Shown here one piece after another: positions 38,205-46,498 of a stretch of 48,363 nt of DNA; within the stretch, counting starts at the first letter, position 1; every line of letters starts with the position of its first letter. The DNA is taken from NCBI GenBank assembly GCA_012730045.1, contig JAAYBR010000026.1:1-48363 (forward strand), given 5' to 3'. The notes below the pieces were generated by a model. It worked only from the letters and a program-made list of their open reading frames with translations. It made no database searches and was not told the DNA's origin. The DNA comes from Candidatus Hydrogenedentota bacterium. GTDB lineage: Bacteria > Hydrogenedentota > Hydrogenedentia > Hydrogenedentales > CAITNO01. Made by a program: the position numbers and the translations under genes.

Positions 38205-38939
38205 ATGGCAGACTGGACAGACGGCATCAACGTGGATGAACTGGCCGCGATGGGCCCCGGGGAGCTGCTCCGGTGGTCCTGGGAGACGCGCGGGGCGCGC
38301 GCCGCAATTTTCACCAGCTTCCAGAAGACCGGCTGCGTGATGATTGACATGGCCCGAACCGCAGCCCCGGATTTGCGGGTGCTGACGGTGGACACCCTCC
38401 GGCTGCCGCAGGACACGCACGACCTGATGGCCGCGCTGGAGAAGAAGTACGGCATCCGGATAGAACGCTTTCAGCCGGACCCGGAACGGGTGGCGCGGAT
38501 GGTGGGCGACCACGGGGAGTACCTGTTCTTTGACAGCCGGGAGAAGCAGGAGCACTGCTGCGCGGTGCGGAAGGTGGAGCCGAACCGCCGCGCGCTGGCG
38601 ACGGTGGACATCTGGATCACCGGGCTGCGCCGCGACCAGTCGGCATTCCGGAAGGCCACGCCCAAGGCGGCGGTCGTCGAGCAGAACGGACGGACGCTGC
38701 TGAAACTCTGCCCCCTCATTGACTGGACGGAGGAGGATGTGGACGGGCACATTGCCGCCAACGCGGTGCCCTACAACAGCCTGTACGACAAGGGATACAC
38801 CAGCATCGGGTGCGTGGTGTGCTCGACGCCGACGCGTCCGGGCGAGGATCCCCGGGCGGGCCGGTGGCGCTGGATGAACCAACTCGCCGGGACGGACAAG
38901 AAGGAGTGCGGCATCCACATCCAGGGCAGCGGCATCTAG
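38205..38939 (+). CDS. cysH: Assimilatory adenylyl-sulfate (APS) reductase, CysH family
   Basis: A 244-residue CysH. It reduces activated sulfate to sulfite using thioredoxin or a related donor. Two cysteine pairs, CC at 118-119 and CVVC at 203-206, are the ligands of a [4Fe-4S] cluster, which points to APS rather than PAPS as substrate. The catalytic cysteine is in the C-terminal KKECGIHIQ motif (C235). Other family features are FTSFQKTGCVMIDMA, VDTLRLPQDTHDL and WITGLRRDQS. The gene has a consensus promoter and AGGAGA ribosome site. Downstream are the two siroheme-pathway genes and, convergent, a sulfite reductase fusion, so the block covers APS to sulfide. ATP sulfurylase (sat or cysDN) is not present here. 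Confidence 0.93.
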   Translation: MADWTDGINVDELAAMGPGELLRWSWETRGARAAIFTSFQKTGCVMIDMARTAAPDLRVLTVDTLRLPQDTHDLMAALEKKYGIRIERFQPDPERVARMVGDHGEYLFFDSREKQEHCCAVRKVEPNRRALATVDIWITGLRRDQSAFRKATPKAAVVEQNGRTLLKLCPLIDWTEEDVDGHIAANAVPYNSLYDKGYTSIGCVVCSTPTRPGEDPRAGRWRWMNQLAGTDKKECGIHIQGSGI

Positions 38940-39082
38940 GTCCCGGCGGGCGGTTACCGCTTTGCCGGCCACCTCCTTTTCGGCCTGCCGCTTTCCGTGG
39001 TGCTGGCTGCCGGCGCGCAGCGCATCCTCCCCGCCGTCCGGCCGTTCTGGCCGGCCGGGCCTTTCTTCGCGCGGCGCGCGGT

Positions 39083-39091
39083 TGCTACAAT
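39083..39091 (+). promoter_or_regulatory. Possible extended -10 promoter of the SUMT gene
   Basis: TGCTACAAT at 39083-39091 is an extended -10; a GGCCGG hairpin (39038-39054, CCGGCC arms) just upstream may end cysH transcription. Predicted start near 39098 gives a leader of about 22 bases before ATG 39120. Confidence 0.35.
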
Positions 39092-39119
39092 GCGCCGGTC
39101 CTCCATGGAGATCCCTCGC

Positions 39120-39890
39120 ATGACATCCTCCCCAAACCACAGCATGCCCCCCGCGCCGGGGCTGGTATCCCTTGTGGGGGCGGGACCAGGCGACCCCGGC
39201 CTGATCACCGTGCGCGGGCTGGATCGCCTCCAGCAGGCCGATGCCGTGGTCCACGATGAGATGATCGCCCCGGAACTGCTCGCCCGGGCCCGGCCAGACG
39301 CCGCGCTTATCCCCGCAGGCAAGCGGCGCGGACATCACTGCATGGAGCAGGACGCCATCAACGCCCTGCTGGCGGCGCTGGCCCGCCCCGGAAAGCGCGT
39401 GTGCCGCCTGAAGACGGGCGACCCCTTCGTGTTTGGGCGGGGCGGCGAGGAGGCCCTGTTTCTCGCCGCGGCCGGCATCCCCTTCGAGGTGGTGCCCGGC
39501 GTCACCTCCGCCGTCGCCGTGCCCGGAGCCGCGGGCATCCCCGTCACCCACCGGGGGCTTGCCGCCGTCTGCACCGTGGTCACCGGCCACGGCGACCCGG
39601 ACGGCGAAGGCCGGGTGGACTGGGAGGCCGTGGCGCGGGCGGGCGGCACGGTGGTGGTGCTCATGGGCCTGAAACACCTCGCGAAGATCGCGGAGCGCCT
39701 GCGGCGCGGCGGACTGGCCGGGGACACCCCCGCCGCCGTCATCACCCGCGGCACCCTGCCGGAGGAGCGGGTCGTCCTGGGGACCCTGGCGGACATCGCG
39801 GCGCGCGCGGAGGGTGCCGGGGCCGCGCCGCCGGGCATCCTGGTCGTCGGCGACGTGGTGACCCTGCGCGGCGGTAAGACACCGGGTTAG
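39120..39890 (+). CDS. cobA: Uroporphyrinogen-III C-methyltransferase (SUMT)
   Basis: A 256-residue SUMT, which uses two S-adenosylmethionines to turn uroporphyrinogen III into precorrin-2, the entry to siroheme and cobalamin. Signatures: VSLVGAGPGDPGLITVRGL at the start, VRGLDRLQQADAVVHDEMI, CRLKTGDPFVFGRGGEEA, VVPGVTSAVAVPGAAGIPVTHRG and VLMGLKHLAKIAERL. ATG 39120 is chosen because GGAG sits 9 bases upstream; ATG 39090 or 39105 in frame are less well supported. The next gene encodes the following siroheme step, and the sulfite reductase that needs siroheme is convergent just beyond, so siroheme is the likely product rather than B12. Confidence 0.93.
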   Translation: MTSSPNHSMPPAPGLVSLVGAGPGDPGLITVRGLDRLQQADAVVHDEMIAPELLARARPDAALIPAGKRRGHHCMEQDAINALLAALARPGKRVCRLKTGDPFVFGRGGEEALFLAAAGIPFEVVPGVTSAVAVPGAAGIPVTHRGLAAVCTVVTGHGDPDGEGRVDWEAVARAGGTVVVLMGLKHLAKIAERLRRGGLAGDTPAAVITRGTLPEERVVLGTLADIAARAEGAGAAPPGILVVGDVVTLRGGKTPG

Positions 39891-40016: not shown

Positions 40017-40029
40017 AAAGGAGATGCCC

Positions 40030-40698
40030 ATGGGATACCTGCCCGTGTTCCTGAATCTCACCGGCCGGGACTGTCTCGTGGTGGGCGGCGGCGCGGTGGC
40101 CCTGCGCAAGGTGGAGACCCTGCTGGAGGCCGACGCCCGCATCACCGTGGTCAGTCCCGCGTTCGCCCCCGCCCTCGACGCGCTGGCCGCCACGCATCCG
40201 GACCGGCTGCGCGTGGTCCGGCAAGCCTACACCCCCCGCGACCTGTCCCCCTTTTCCTTCGTCATCGCGGCCACGGACGACCCGGCGGTCAACGCGGCCG
40301 TCGCGGCGGACGCCGAACGCGCGCGGGTGTGGGTCAACGTGGTGGATGTGCCGGAACACTGCACCGTCCTCGCCGCCGCCACCTTCCGGCGCGGCCCGGT
40401 GCAGGTGGCCGTGGGCACGGGGGGCGTGTGCCCCGCCCTGGGCCGGACCCTGCGCGACGAGTTGGAGGCCGCCTGCCCGGAGGCCCTGGGGGACTACGCT
40501 GCCGCCCTCGGCGCCGAGCGCGCGCGCCTCCGGAGGGAATGCCCGGATCCGGCACTCCGCGCGCGGACCCTCGACCACCTGTGCCGCCGCGAAACCCGCG
40601 ACCGCCTCCTGCGGGAGACCACCGGCACCCTGGAGACCCGCCTGCGCGAAGAGACCGGCCGGTTCCTCGGCGAAGACATGCCGCCCGCGCGTCCGTAG
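40030..40698 (+). CDS. Precorrin-2 dehydrogenase / sirohydrochlorin ferrochelatase (siroheme synthase N-domain)
   Basis: A 222-residue protein matching the N-terminal half of CysG (Met8/SirC type). It oxidises precorrin-2 with NAD+ to sirohydrochlorin and, in bifunctional members, inserts iron to make siroheme. The Rossmann start YLPVFLNLTGRDCLVVGGGAVALRKVETLLEADARITVVSP is diagnostic. Then FVIAATDDPAVNAAVAADAERARVWVNVVDVPEHCTVLAAATFRRGPVQVAVGTGGVCPAL follows, where the aspartate of VVDVPEHC is the presumed catalytic residue. The C-terminus is a helical dimerisation region. ATG 40030 has AAAGGAG 6 bases upstream; ATG 40024 abuts that site. It is separated from SUMT by a palindromic repeat, unlike CysG where the two halves are fused. 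Confidence 0.92.
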   Translation: MGYLPVFLNLTGRDCLVVGGGAVALRKVETLLEADARITVVSPAFAPALDALAATHPDRLRVVRQAYTPRDLSPFSFVIAATDDPAVNAAVAADAERARVWVNVVDVPEHCTVLAAATFRRGPVQVAVGTGGVCPALGRTLRDELEAACPEALGDYAAALGAERARLRRECPDPALRARTLDHLCRRETRDRLLRETTGTLETRLREETGRFLGEDMPPARP

Positions 40699-40735: not shown

Positions 40736-43700
40736 CTACTGGTCCCGGCAGGTTCCCGTGCAGCGTTCCATGCGGCGCAGCGAGATGGCGCCGACGGGAC
40801 AGATGCTGATGCAGTTGCCGCAGCGGATGCAGTTGTCGCTGTCTATCCAGATGTAGGTGGCGGCGGCGGGGTCGCCCGGGGGCGTCTCCTCCCACGCGAC
40901 GGGCTCGCCGTCGGGGCCGCGCTCGAGGCTGGCGAGGCGGCGGATGCAGTCGCGCGGCGAGACCTTGATGCACCAGTCGCAGTGGATGCACTTGTCCTGG
41001 TCAATCTCGAACTTGTGGTTGCACAGGTAGCAGCGCCAGGCGTGGGTGTCCGCGTCCTCCGGGCCGAAGCCCCGCTCCACCTCGTCCCCGGCGCCGCGCG
41101 CCGCCGGCGGCAGCACGGGCATGGGCGGGGGATACACGAGGTCGTGGTCGCGCGTGCGGTCGGTGAGCCCGGCGGGCTCCACGCGCACGCCGGTCCTGCG
41201 CCTCTGGGCGCCCATGAGGAAGGCGTCCATGGCCTCCGCGGCGGCCTTGCCGCCCGCGACGGCGTGGATGACGTCGCCGCTGCCGCCCGCGAAGTCGCCC
41301 GCCACAAAGAGGTTGGGGGCCGAGGTGCGGCAGCCGTCCGCCTGCGCCACGCCCCCGGGCAGCAGCCCGCGCTCGGGGTGCTGGCCGATGGCGAAGATCA
41401 CGCTGCGGCAGGGCACGTCAAACTCGCTGCCGGGCACGGGAATGAACCGGGGCTTGCCGCCCGGCTCCGGCTCGCCGAGCAGATTGCGCTGGAAGCGGAT
41501 GCCCGCGAGGCGCCCGTCCTCCACCAGCGCGCAAACCGGGGTGACCAGCGTCTCCACGGCGACCCGCTCCTCGTGCAGCTCGCGCAGCTCGTCCTCGCTG
41601 GCCGCCATCTGGGCCGTCCCCCGGCGGTAAAGGATGGACACCCGGCCCGCGTCCCCGACGAGGCGGCGCGCGGCGCGCGCGCAATCCACTGCCGTAAACC
41701 CGCCACCGATGACGGCCACATCCGGCGCCAGGCCGGAGAGCATGCCCGCGTTATAGCGCATCATGAAGTCCAGCCCCTCGATGCCCGCGCCTTCCGGCAG
41801 GCCCTCCAGGTCCAGACGCATGGGGCGCGACGCCCCGGCGGCCAGCAATACGGCGTCGTATTCGCGCCGGAGTGCGTCCACCCCGCCCGCGTCCAGCCGG
41901 GCGCCCAGCCGCACCGTGACCCCGCTGTCCACAATGGCCGCGATGTCGGCGTCCACCGCGTCCGGCGGCAGGCGGAACGCGGGGATGGCGCGCATCTGGC
42001 CGCCCAGGCGGTCCGCGCCGTCGAAGACGGTGACCTCGTGGCCGCAACGCTTGAGTTCGCGGGACGCCGCGAGGCCGGCGGGGCCGCCGCCGACCACGGC
42101 CACGCGTTTGCCCGTCGGCCCGAACCATGCGGGCAGGGGGCGGGGCGGCGCGGACGCGCCGTCCGATGCGGCGCGCTTCAGCGAGCAGATGCGGACGGGG
42201 CCGCGGGTGCTGGTCCACTGATAGCGGCAGCGGCTCTCGCAGGGCCGCGTGCAGACGCGCCCCAGCACGCCGGGGAACACGTTGTCCTCCTGGTTGACGA
42301 GGTGGGCGGCGTCCAGGTCGCCGAGGGCGATGCGGCGGATGTACTCCGGCACGTTTGTCTTTGCGGGGCAGGCCTCCTGGCAGGGGATGTCCCGCGCCAC
42401 GGTTTTCAGGTCGCCCGGCGTCTCCCCGAAACCCTCCGTCACGGACAGCTCGGCGGGGTTTTCCGCCAGGGGACGGGCGGGGAGGTTCAGGGCCGCGACG
42501 GCGTCGCGGTAGGGGGCCAGTCCGGCGCGGCGCACATGCGCGGCGAGACGCTCCATCGTGCCCGCGGCGAGGAAGGTGTCCAGCAGGGCCCCCATCACGC
42601 GGACACAGTCCTCCGTCCGGAATTCGCCCAGCACGGTGCCCGGGGCATCCTCCGTGCCGCCGAGCGTTACCTGGTACGCCTCCGAGGAGCCGCGCAGGTC
42701 GCGCACCCGCATGCCCCGGAACCCGATGTCCGCAATGCTGTACTGCGAGCAGGAGTTGGGGCAGCCGGAAAGGTTCACCAAAACGCGCGCGCGGATGGAT
42801 GCGTACCTGTCGTCGTGGACCACCGCCTGGAACCGGTCAAACAGCGCGTGGGTCGCGCCGACGGCGAGGGGGCAGTAGGTCGTGCCCACGCAGGTGACGA
42901 TGTCGCGCAGGCCGTGGAATCCCTCCGCCGCGAAGCCAAGCGCGGCGATTTCCGCCCGCAGTTCCGGCAGCCGCTCCGGCCGCACGCCGTGCAGCTCCAG
43001 GTTCTGGCGGTTCGTGGCGTAGACATGCTTGTCGCCGTAGATTTCCGAAAGCTCGGCAATCCGCGCGAGGGCCGCCGCGGCCATCTCCCCCTTGGGGATC
43101 ATGATCCGCTGGATGGCCAGCCCGTCGTCCCCCCGGGGGTCCGGGTCGGCCATCGGGTTCTCTGGCGGCGCGGGGGCGCACTCTTCAAAGGGCCGCGTGT
43201 CGAAGCCGCCCCGGTCCACGCCGGCGGCGTCCAGCAGTCCGTCCACGATCTCCCGGCAGCGGTCAATGCCCAGCCGGTGCACCACGAATTTGAGGCGCGA
43301 GTGCATGCGGACGCGCCGGTCGCCGTGGTCGCGCAGCAGGACGCCGACGGCGCGGCACAGCTCCACCGCGTGCTCCGCCGGGAGGAAGGTGTAGAGCGTC
43401 TGGGCGGTGAAGGGCCGCCAGCCCAGGCCGCCGCCGATCTTCACGCGGAACCCCGCCTCCCGCGCGCCGTCCTTTCCGGCGCGCGCGACGGCCACCAGGC
43501 CCACGCAGTTGATGTGCGGCTGGCCGCACCCGGCGGCGCACCCGGAGTAGGTGATTTTGAACTTGCGGGGCAGGTTGTCCAGGCTGCGGTCCGCCGAGAG
43601 CACCCGCGAGGTCTCCTCCGCGAGGGGCAGCACGTCCAGCCGCCGGTTCGGGCAGATGGCGGCCCAGGGGCACGCCGACACATTGCGCGTGACGTCGCCG

Positions 43701-44068
43701 CAGCCGTGGAAGGAGGTCATGCCCGCCGCATGGAGGTCGCGCAGCACCCGGGGCAGGTCCCGGAGCTGGAGACGGTGGAACTGCGCGCACTGGCGCGTGG
43801 TGAAGGAAATCAGGCCCGTTGCGTAGCTTTCCGAGAGCCGCGCCAGCGCGCGCGCGCGCACCGAGGTAATGCGCCCGCCGGGGATGACCACGCGCATCAT
43901 GTGGTTGCCCGGCTGCCGCGACTGGTAGATGCCGTACCACTTGGCGATGGACAGCTCCTCGCGGGCCATGGACCCCTTGCGGGCCATCTCATCGAAGTCC
44001 AGAACGAACCCCGCGTCCTTGATGATTTCCTCGTCGCTACGGAGACGTTTTTCCAGTTTTCGCTGCAT
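40736..44068 (-). CDS. Three-part fusion: siroheme sulfite reductase + GltD-like flavoprotein + ferredoxin
   Basis: An uninterrupted 1,110-residue protein. Residues about 40-530 are a siroheme/[4Fe-4S] nitrite-sulfite reductase with two half-domains; cluster ligands are C-x5-C (CVGTTYC, near 393-399) and C-x3-C (CPNSC, near 436-440). Residues about 555-955 are a GltD-like oxidoreductase: cysteine motifs CQEACPAKTNVP and CTRPCESRC, FAD site VVGGGPAGLAA (near 658) and NAD(P) site AVIGGGFTAVDCAR (near 785). Residues about 1010-1095 carry two ferredoxin motifs, the second a full CIRCGNCISICP. The likely reaction is six-electron reduction of sulfite to sulfide with NAD(P)H (inference); nitrite is an alternative, but cysH and siroheme genes nearby favour sulfite. 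ATG 44068 follows GAGG; GTG 44074 is less likely. Confidence 0.88.
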   Translation of the reverse strand: MQRKLEKRLRSDEEIIKDAGFVLDFDEMARKGSMAREELSIAKWYGIYQSRQPGNHMMRVVIPGGRITSVRARALARLSESYATGLISFTTRQCAQFHRLQLRDLPRVLRDLHAAGMTSFHGCGDVTRNVSACPWAAICPNRRLDVLPLAEETSRVLSADRSLDNLPRKFKITYSGCAAGCGQPHINCVGLVAVARAGKDGAREAGFRVKIGGGLGWRPFTAQTLYTFLPAEHAVELCRAVGVLLRDHGDRRVRMHSRLKFVVHRLGIDRCREIVDGLLDAAGVDRGGFDTRPFEECAPAPPENPMADPDPRGDDGLAIQRIMIPKGEMAAAALARIAELSEIYGDKHVYATNRQNLELHGVRPERLPELRAEIAALGFAAEGFHGLRDIVTCVGTTYCPLAVGATHALFDRFQAVVHDDRYASIRARVLVNLSGCPNSCSQYSIADIGFRGMRVRDLRGSSEAYQVTLGGTEDAPGTVLGEFRTEDCVRVMGALLDTFLAAGTMERLAAHVRRAGLAPYRDAVAALNLPARPLAENPAELSVTEGFGETPGDLKTVARDIPCQEACPAKTNVPEYIRRIALGDLDAAHLVNQEDNVFPGVLGRVCTRPCESRCRYQWTSTRGPVRICSLKRAASDGASAPPRPLPAWFGPTGKRVAVVGGGPAGLAASRELKRCGHEVTVFDGADRLGGQMRAIPAFRLPPDAVDADIAAIVDSGVTVRLGARLDAGGVDALRREYDAVLLAAGASRPMRLDLEGLPEGAGIEGLDFMMRYNAGMLSGLAPDVAVIGGGFTAVDCARAARRLVGDAGRVSILYRRGTAQMAASEDELRELHEERVAVETLVTPVCALVEDGRLAGIRFQRNLLGEPEPGGKPRFIPVPGSEFDVPCRSVIFAIGQHPERGLLPGGVAQADGCRTSAPNLFVAGDFAGGSGDVIHAVAGGKAAAEAMDAFLMGAQRRRTGVRVEPAGLTDRTRDHDLVYPPPMPVLPPAARGAGDEVERGFGPEDADTHAWRCYLCNHKFEIDQDKCIHCDWCIKVSPRDCIRRLASLERGPDGEPVAWEETPPGDPAAATYIWIDSDNCIRCGNCISICPVGAISLRRMERCTGTCRDQ

Positions 44069-44129
44069 GGCCACCTCGCGTTAAACGCCCGCGCGCGGCC
44101 CCGACGGGTCGCGCGCCCCAGTTTCCGCC

Positions 44130-44281: not shown

Positions 44282-44842
44282 ATGGGCCGGAACACCGTTC
44301 ATTTCAAATGCCATCACTGCGACCACTGCTGCCGCGACGTCGTGTGCCTGCCCACGCCGTGGGACGTGCTCCGCATCGCCCTGACCACGGGGCAGGACCC
44401 CCACGACTTCCTGGAGTTCCTCACACCCGACGAGATCACGGGCGTCGCCAAGAACGACCCCGCCTGGCTGCTGGCCGGCGGACAGAAGCACATGATGGCC
44501 CTGCGCCGCACGGCCAAACGGGGGTGCCACTTCCTGGACCGGAAGACGGGCTTCTGCGGCATCTACGACGCGCGCCCCATCCTCTGCCGGCTCTATCCCT
44601 TCAAGCTCCAGGAAACCCGCGACGGGGACTTCCGCGGCTTCACGCTCCACAAGGACGTGGGCTGCCCCCGCCACCGCGACGGCGTCTACGACACCGGCCC
44701 CCTTTACGACCTCTACCTCAACGACCGCATGCACCATGAGGACTACGACACGATGGTCGAGGCCTTCAACCGGAAGGACCGCCCCGGCCGGGAGCCGCAG
44801 GAGTTCCTGGACCTGTTCATCGAGGTCGTCGTGGAGGGGTAG
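44282..44842 (+). CDS. YkgJ-family cysteine-cluster protein
   Basis: A 186-residue protein of the CxxCxxCC (YkgJ, zinc/iron-chelating) family. Near the N-terminus FKCHHCDHCCRDVVC supplies the cysteine cluster; further cysteines follow in RGCHFLDRKTGFCGIYDARPILCRLYPF and in VGCPRH, which together would hold a metal or Fe-S cluster. The stretch CGIYDARPxxCRxYPF is diagnostic. Cellular role is unknown for most members. GAAGGAG lies 6 bases before ATG 44282. A TATAAC box at about 44232 may be its promoter. It lies between the divergent sulfite reductase gene and uxaC on the same strand, with a palindrome right after its stop that may end transcription. Confidence 0.88.
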   Translation: MGRNTVHFKCHHCDHCCRDVVCLPTPWDVLRIALTTGQDPHDFLEFLTPDEITGVAKNDPAWLLAGGQKHMMALRRTAKRGCHFLDRKTGFCGIYDARPILCRLYPFKLQETRDGDFRGFTLHKDVGCPRHRDGVYDTGPLYDLYLNDRMHHEDYDTMVEAFNRKDRPGREPQEFLDLFIEVVVEG

Positions 44843-44983: not shown

Positions 44984-45070
44984 GGACGGTTCCGGCAATT
45001 GTGCCGGAGGCCCCTTGGCGGGGCCGCGCCGCCTGGTTGCGGTGACCAACCGGAAAAGGAGGACGGAGCC

Positions 45071-46498
45071 ATGCCCAAGAGCCTGTACATCAAGGACGAC
45101 TTTCTGCTGACGAACGAGCCCGCCCGGCAGCTGTTCCATGAGTTTGCCCGGGAACTCCCCATCATTGACTATCACTGCCACCTGCCCGCCGGGCTGATCG
45201 CCGAGGACCACCGCTTCGCCAACCTGGCGGAGGTCTGGCTGGCCGGGGACCATTACAAATGGCGGATCATGCGCGCCAACGGCATCCCGGAGCGCTACTG
45301 CACCGGCGACGCCCCGGATTTCGAGAAATACATGAAATGGGCGGAGACCGTGCCGAAGTGCGTGCGCAACCCCGCCTACCATTGGACCCACATGGAGCTG
45401 AAGCGCCCCTTCGGCATTGCGGACCGCGTCTTCGGCCCCGACACCGCCGAAAGCATCTGGGAGGAGTGCAACGAGAAGCTGGCGAAGCCGGAGTTCTCCG
45501 CGCGCGGCATCATGCGCCAGATGCGGGTGGAACTGGTCTGCACCACGGACGACCCGGTGGACGACCTGGCCGCCCACCGCAAGATCGCGGCGGACAAGGA
45601 CTTCGACATCCGGGTGCTGCCCACCTGGCGGCCCGACCGGGCCCTGGCCGTGGACGATCCGGCAACCTTCACCGCCTGGGTGGCGAAGCTGGAGGAGGCG
45701 GCGGGCATGGACTGCCCGACCTGGGAGGCCTTTCTGGAGGCCCTGCGCAAACGCCAGGACTTCTTCCACGACTGCGGCTGTCGCATCGCCGACCACGGCC
45801 TGGAGGTTCCCCATGCGGCGGACTTCACCGCGGCGGCGGTGGAGGCGGCCTACCGGGCCGCCCGCGACGGGAAGACGCCGGACGCGGACGCGGCGCTCCA
45901 GTACAAGTCGGCCACCCTGCTGGAGCTGGGGCGCATGAACCACGCCAAGGACTGGGCGCAACAGCTGCACATCGGCCCCATCCGCAACCTGAACTCGCGC
46001 ATGGCCGGCCTTCTCGGCGCGGACGCGGGCTATGACTCCGTGGGCGACACGCCTTTCGCCCGGCCCCTGGCGAAGTACCTGGACCGCCTCGAAAGCACCG
46101 GCCAGCTCACGCGGACGGTCCTGTACACCATCAACCCGGCGGCCAACATGGTGCTGGCCACCATGACCGGCAATTTCCAGGACGGGTCGGCGCCCGGCAA
46201 GATGCAGTTCGGCAGCGGATGGTGGTTCAACGACCAGATGGACGGCATGATCCGCCAGATGGAGATTCTGTCGCAGACGGGGCTGCTGAGCCGCTTTGTG
46301 GGGATGCTCACGGACAGCCGGAGCTTCCTGAGCTACACGCGCCACGAGTACTTCCGGCGCATCCTGTGCAACATGATCGGCTCGGACATCACCGCCGGCC
46401 TGCTGCCCATGGGCTACAAGACCTACGGCGCGCTGATCAAGGACATCTGCCACAACAACGCGAACGCGTATTTCGGGTTTGGGCTGCCGGACCACTGA
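45071..46498 (+). CDS. uxaC: Uronate isomerase (glucuronate/galacturonate isomerase)
   Basis: A 475-residue UxaC of the amidohydrolase superfamily. It converts D-glucuronate to D-fructuronate and D-galacturonate to D-tagaturonate, the first step of hexuronate catabolism. Family features are FLLTNEPARQLFHEFARELPIIDYHCHLP (metal-binding HxH), WLAGDHYKWRIMRANG, YHWTHMELKRPFGI, CTTDDPVDDLAAHR (late metal-binding aspartate region), LPTWRPDRAL, QLHIGPIRNLNSRM and the C-terminal LTDSRSFLSYTRHEYFRRILCNMIG. Length is normal for the family (about 470). It has its own promoter behind a palindromic repeat array, so it is probably regulated alone; later pathway genes (uxuA/B, kdgK/A) are not in the window. 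It fits the use of uronate-rich glycans suggested by the sulfatases. Confidence 0.96.
   Translation: MPKSLYIKDDFLLTNEPARQLFHEFARELPIIDYHCHLPAGLIAEDHRFANLAEVWLAGDHYKWRIMRANGIPERYCTGDAPDFEKYMKWAETVPKCVRNPAYHWTHMELKRPFGIADRVFGPDTAESIWEECNEKLAKPEFSARGIMRQMRVELVCTTDDPVDDLAAHRKIAADKDFDIRVLPTWRPDRALAVDDPATFTAWVAKLEEAAGMDCPTWEAFLEALRKRQDFFHDCGCRIADHGLEVPHAADFTAAAVEAAYRAARDGKTPDADAALQYKSATLLELGRMNHAKDWAQQLHIGPIRNLNSRMAGLLGADAGYDSVGDTPFARPLAKYLDRLESTGQLTRTVLYTINPAANMVLATMTGNFQDGSAPGKMQFGSGWWFNDQMDGMIRQMEILSQTGLLSRFVGMLTDSRSFLSYTRHEYFRRILCNMIGSDITAGLLPMGYKTYGALIKDICHNNANAYFGFGLPDH

Follow-up and report, generated by a model that had tools for sequence, protein, structure and literature searches.

A putative self-powered, single-chain assimilatory sulfite reductase with GltD-like flavoprotein and ferredoxin modules in Candidatus Hydrogenedentota

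Introduction

Can a single gene supply both a sulfite reductase and the machinery that feeds it with electrons? CysJ, which serves this purpose in the CysJI enzyme of E. coli, is an FAD/FMN protein, and NirA takes its electrons from an external ferredoxin. In a Candidatus Hydrogenedentota genome (contig JAAYBR010000026.1; the 48,363-nucleotide stretch analysed is referred to here as the window), an initial annotation had proposed that siroheme reductase, GltD-like flavoprotein and ferredoxin are joined in one chain. Two of the ingredients are known, each by itself: the self-contained sulfite reductase Fsr and the GltD-like donor DsrL. In the open-licence literature searched we found no assimilatory sulfite reductase described as fused or as GltD-linked, nor any double-repeat, two-motif reductase combined with an NADPH-type GltD-like module and a ferredoxin.

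Results

The gene is a single intact coding sequence of 1,110 amino acids, with its ATG at 44068-44066 preceded by GAGG on the minus strand and its stop at 40736-40738. Frame length and coordinates agree with the initial annotation, to which the strand (minus) can now be added. An alternative GTG at 44074 gives a protein of 1,112 residues, the version to which all residue numbers in this work refer, and the N-termini of the relatives likewise read MQR(K/N/S)L. A CxxCxxCC metal-binding protein (window 44282-44842) and the glucuronate isomerase UxaC (window 45068-46498) are coded near the fused gene, with no evident link to it.

Pfam places NIR_SIR_ferr and NIR_SIR, each twice, within residues 51 to ~490, followed by Fer4_20 (562-640), Pyr_redox_2 (657-942) and a Fer4 dicluster domain (1028-1098), and the E-values of the domain matches (1.9e-41, 3.9e-34 and 9.6e-26) are far beyond chance. 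The NCBIfam model PRK12771 spans residues 558-1100, covering Fer4_20, the FAD/NAD(P) domain and the ferredoxin (E=4.6e-101). The AlphaFold model of the fused protein is confident (pLDDT 90.1, pTM 0.80), and Foldseek matched its front part to M. tuberculosis NirA (1zj8) and plant reductases, and its back part to NfnABC, StnABC and GltD. By these matches the reductase part is assigned as a NirA-type siroheme sulfite/nitrite reductase, and the flavoprotein part as a GltD/NfnB-like FAD/NAD(P) module with a two-cluster ferredoxin. The proposed modules and their order are thus real, and they are kept in the fused relatives. Neither CysJ-type flavodoxin-like FMN and FAD reductase domains nor an FrhB-type F420 oxidase domain was found in the fused chain by Pfam.

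Table 1. Positions of the fused gene, its modules and motifs, and the neighbouring pathway genes in the window
Feature	Position	Strand	Basis
cysH-like APS/PAPS reductase	38205..38939	+	domain matches
cobA, uroporphyrinogen-III C-methyltransferase (siroheme synthesis)	38997..39890	+	domain matches
Precorrin-2 dehydrogenase / ferrochelatase-like, CysG N-terminal type (met8-like)	40024..40698	+	domain matches
Fused sulfite reductase / GltD-like flavoprotein / dicluster ferredoxin CDS (predicted)	40736..44068	-	ORF and domain matches
C-terminal ferredoxin cysteines C1015-C1092	40799..41032	-	C-x2-C; C-x2-C-x2-C-x7-C; C-x2-C-x2-C-x3-C
FAD/NAD(P) domain (Pyr_redox_2)	41249..42106	-	Pfam; Foldseek NfnABC/StnABC/GltD
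YRR motif, residues 816-818	41621..41629	-	alignment; NADPH-type in DsrL-2 (PMC7596348)
Fer4_20, GltD/NfnB-type N-terminal cluster domain (C565, C569, C608, C612, C616)	42155..42391	-	Pfam, alignment
Reductase C-terminal half (residues ~318-505)	42560..43123	-	profile matches
Catalytic siroheme-[4Fe-4S] motif C395-x5-C401...C438-x3-C442	42749..42892	-	29/29 relatives and all references
Reductase N-terminal half (residues ~45-285)	43220..43942	-	Pfam; holds R94, R130, K171, K173
Second (N-half) [4Fe-4S] motif C135-x5-C141...C179-x3-C183	43526..43672	-	25/25 relatives having the N-half

The four basic substrate residues are all present, R94 and R130 in 25 of 25 relatives and the lysines within an LPRK(F/Y)K stretch kept in all rows. 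The claim that all key motifs are intact holds for the catalytic motif, whose cluster cysteines are conserved, but not for the ferredoxin, whose first motif is non-standard: serine or alanine replaces the usual fourth cysteine, and a cysteine stands four residues on (C1043). An extra CxxC lies upstream of this motif, the pattern is kept across the whole clade, and ten ferredoxin cysteines are invariant across 13 fused proteins. The Fer4_20 domain is without the two usual distal-cluster cysteines, and the exact electron route is therefore uncertain. The YRR motif, which marks the NADPH-specific DsrL-2 (PMC7596348), was found in every reductase-linked flavoprotein module aligned.

The initial annotation did not report the cluster motif of the N-terminal half. 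It is absent from the ten aSir-type reference enzymes aligned (E. coli CysI and the nitrite/sulfite reductases of Chlorohelix, Thermus, Streptomyces, Shinella, Acinetobacter, Allomeiothermus, Aureibacter, Paraburkholderia and Tistrella), as well as from the solved nitrite reductases aligned. According to the Fsr structure paper (PMC10229431), two siroheme-cluster sites were ancestral; DsrAB retained both, one for catalysis and one as a structural site, while assimilatory enzymes gave one up. The aSir/NirA type is defined by one cluster site and a lost N-half motif, which the fused protein has retained; it would work like aSir but is a two-motif variant, carrying a DsrAB-like pair of motifs on one chain. 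The pseudo-site arginine R356 (in NRQN) is kept in all family rows and absent from the ten references, but the two lysines are missing from the pseudo-site, so that a second siroheme, if bound at all, would probably be structural. The idea that the twin motif is unique to the fused family was rejected, since L058, L060 and the unfused Verrucomicrobiota reductase in L106 also carry it. L058 (G071) and L060 (G073) hold another type of nitrite/sulfite reductase with twin cluster motifs, to which L058 adds a C-terminal TusA domain.

Whether sulfite or nitrite is reduced cannot be read from the sequence by itself, but gene context makes sulfite the likely substrate. Family searches of the genome found the ATP sulfurylase Sat, but not CysD, and the fused gene was the only NIR_SIR gene. 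The CC and CxxC pairs of the cysH-like product suggest an APS reductase, and the true start of cobA is probably internal to the frame listed in Table 1. Among the relatives, whose neighbouring genes were named by reading their sequences, 13 loci have a cysteine-synthase-type gene (cysK) as neighbour of the reductase or close to it, 9 loci have cysH, and others have cysD/cysNC and metB-type genes. No nitrate-reductase-like molybdoenzyme was found in the genome, where a single weak and partial molybdopterin-oxidoreductase match leaves no sign of nitrate assimilation. Taken together, Sat, cysH, the siroheme genes, the sole NIR_SIR gene, the sulfur genes of the relatives and this lack of a nitrate pathway point to sulfite, in an assimilatory pathway, as the likely substrate.

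The same evidence makes it improbable that the enzyme is an assimilatory nitrite reductase, in which the NirA-like part would make ammonia from nitrite with NAD(P)H. That reading draws on the reductase half, whose best NCBIfam matches are NirA-type models and whose closest solved relatives are nitrite reductases, plant enzymes among them, and M. tuberculosis NirA; NirA, however, is itself reported as a sulfite reductase in a title cited in PMC11237513. Sulfur-assimilation neighbours recur across phyla, and the family search found no other sulfite reductase in this genome, which has Sat and cysH.

Somewhat less probable still is a main role outside assimilation, in the detoxification of sulfite or in dissimilation, as for Fsr or DsrAB-DsrL. 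The two cluster motifs recall DsrA and DsrB, the GltD-like donor recalls DsrL, and in one Verrucomicrobiota genome (L106:2654-7827, G437) an unfused twin-motif reductase, 36% identical, a GltD-like flavoprotein and a TauE-type sulfite exporter lie in a row, a more distant version of the fused system. Against this, cysH, cysK and siroheme genes accompany the family, none of the dsr genes was seen in the window, and the family search of the genome found no other sulfite reductase that could serve assimilation.

The initial annotation had proposed a search for the same domain order in other genomes, and this order was found in Hydrogenedentota and Planctomycetota. The full fused ORF is present in 8 of the 68 Hydrogenedentota genomes sampled, a ninth match (G048) being the flavoprotein module only, and in several Planctomycetota (Pirellulales, Sedimentisphaerales and Phycisphaerae), although it is rare there, since the only one of 246 genomes sampled in the Planctomycetota group searched that carries it is the seed genome itself. 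In a genome of the same genus the fused gene is 89% identical, with dN/dS values of 0.22 for the reductase, 0.18 for the flavoprotein and 0.23 for the ferredoxin, and all modules are under purifying selection. Two neighbouring genes are found instead in Lentisphaerae, Kiritimatiellae, other Verrucomicrobia, Spirochaetes and Fibrobacterota (Chitinivibrionales), as well as in one Phycisphaerales and one Gemmatimonadales genome, as would be expected if the flavoprotein/ferredoxin were the electron donor of the reductase. In 12 of 14 unfused pairs the genes overlap by 4 nt, with the second start inside the stop codon of the first (ATGA/GTGA). This overlap in other phyla is what might suggest that misassembly or a frameshift has run two genes together here, the case named beforehand as fatal to the single-chain claim, but such an artefact is hardly credible and is effectively excluded by the many intact fused relatives in Hydrogenedentota and Planctomycetota (55-89% identical) and the low dN/dS.

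All fused proteins fall into a single clade of the reductase tree (row L017, labelled split, is actually fused), and they group in the flavoprotein tree as well, with one unfused row at an unresolved basal position. A single fusion event is the simplest reading of both trees. The Verrucomicrobiota flavoprotein had also been considered stand-alone, a view partly rejected, as such a reductase stands beside the flavoprotein gene in 8 of the 24 loci concerned. One locus has a second NIR_SIR frame (L080:3619-4872) downstream of its flavoprotein/reductase pair. In the genome studied here, contig C37 carries a 344-bp fragment (L126:8155-8498) that is 91% identical to window 40947-41290 and reads as what is left of an incomplete duplication that took in the ferredoxin end of the gene, not as a second copy; a GltD-like paralogue (G000:C104:33875-35314, L003) lies inside a 1,144-aa open frame.

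Discussion

Our analysis supports, with a probability of about 0.8, an NADPH-dependent, one-chain assimilatory sulfite reductase that powers itself and whose modules were joined in a single event, starting from two overlapping ancestral genes. NADPH would reduce the FAD of the GltD-like module, and electrons would travel over the Fe-S clusters of this module, then over the C-terminal ferredoxin, and reach the siroheme-[4Fe-4S] centre of the reductase C-half. Sulfite, held by R94, R130, K171 and K173 of the N-half, would be reduced at the siroheme centre to sulfide, which would then enter cysteine synthesis. We infer NADPH as the donor, the electron route, the substrate and the assimilatory role, and likewise the activity of the enzyme and its independence from an external donor.

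The enzyme shares with CysJI and NirA/SirA the double-repeat NIR_SIR fold, the four substrate Arg/Lys residues and the catalytic motif in the C-half, but its donor is a fused GltD-like flavoprotein with a ferredoxin, and its N-half cluster motif sets it apart from CysI and the nine other references. A GltD-like donor had been presented as a different solution from CysJ, which the domain content bears out; it is not unique, since DsrL is the GltD-like donor of DsrAB (PMC7596348). Like DsrAB with DsrL, the protein has two siroheme-cluster motifs per functional unit and a GltD/NfnB-type flavoprotein with a C-terminal dicluster ferredoxin (Fer4, FAD/NAD(P), linker), with YRR as in DsrL-2; unlike them, it is one chain, and its reductase has no inserted ferredoxin domain. 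Membership of the module in DsrL was rejected. It is 30-31% identical to DsrL from Gemmatimonadota dsrABL loci, but these DsrL proteins branch as a clade of their own with full support and differ from it in the C-terminal ferredoxin, and the dsrAB expected of a DsrL host is missing from a genome with one NIR_SIR gene. The module is best described, from these comparisons, as related to DsrL and probably working like it, but not DsrL. Near the dsrAB of one Verrucomicrobiota genome (G379) no dsrL was found.

The Fsr of methanogens (PMC10229431) also unites cofactor oxidase, ferredoxin clusters and siroheme reductase in one chain, but combines a single Dsr-type repeat with an F420H2 oxidase, in contrast to the double repeat and GltD-like NAD(P)H module described here. 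The Fer4_20, FAD/NAD(P) and dicluster ferredoxin architecture is that of the PRK12771 and NfnB-StnB/GltD flavoproteins; whereas other PRK12771-type proteins pair with 2-oxoacid oxidoreductases, Nfn/Stn partners or glutamate synthase, the present clade pairs with sulfite reductase.

A bolder version of the preferred reading, which we hold at less than even odds, is a single-chain assimilatory enzyme that, like DsrAB, has a structural siroheme-[4Fe-4S] centre in addition to the catalytic one and is driven directly by NADPH through the DsrL-like module. If true, modern assimilatory enzymes, which are supposed to stem from a gene duplication and fusion, would have in this enzyme a living representative of an intermediate stage. 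The conserved second motif makes that model of sulfite reductase evolution directly testable, because the model has the aSir type losing one site (PMC10229431) and the aSir-shaped chain described here kept the motif. The engineering of sulfur assimilation could also profit from an NADPH-dependent sulfite reductase encoded by one gene. For the organisms themselves, the fused and unfused forms, spread over several uncultured phyla, would represent a third way to drive the assimilatory reduction of sulfite, alongside CysJ and free ferredoxin.
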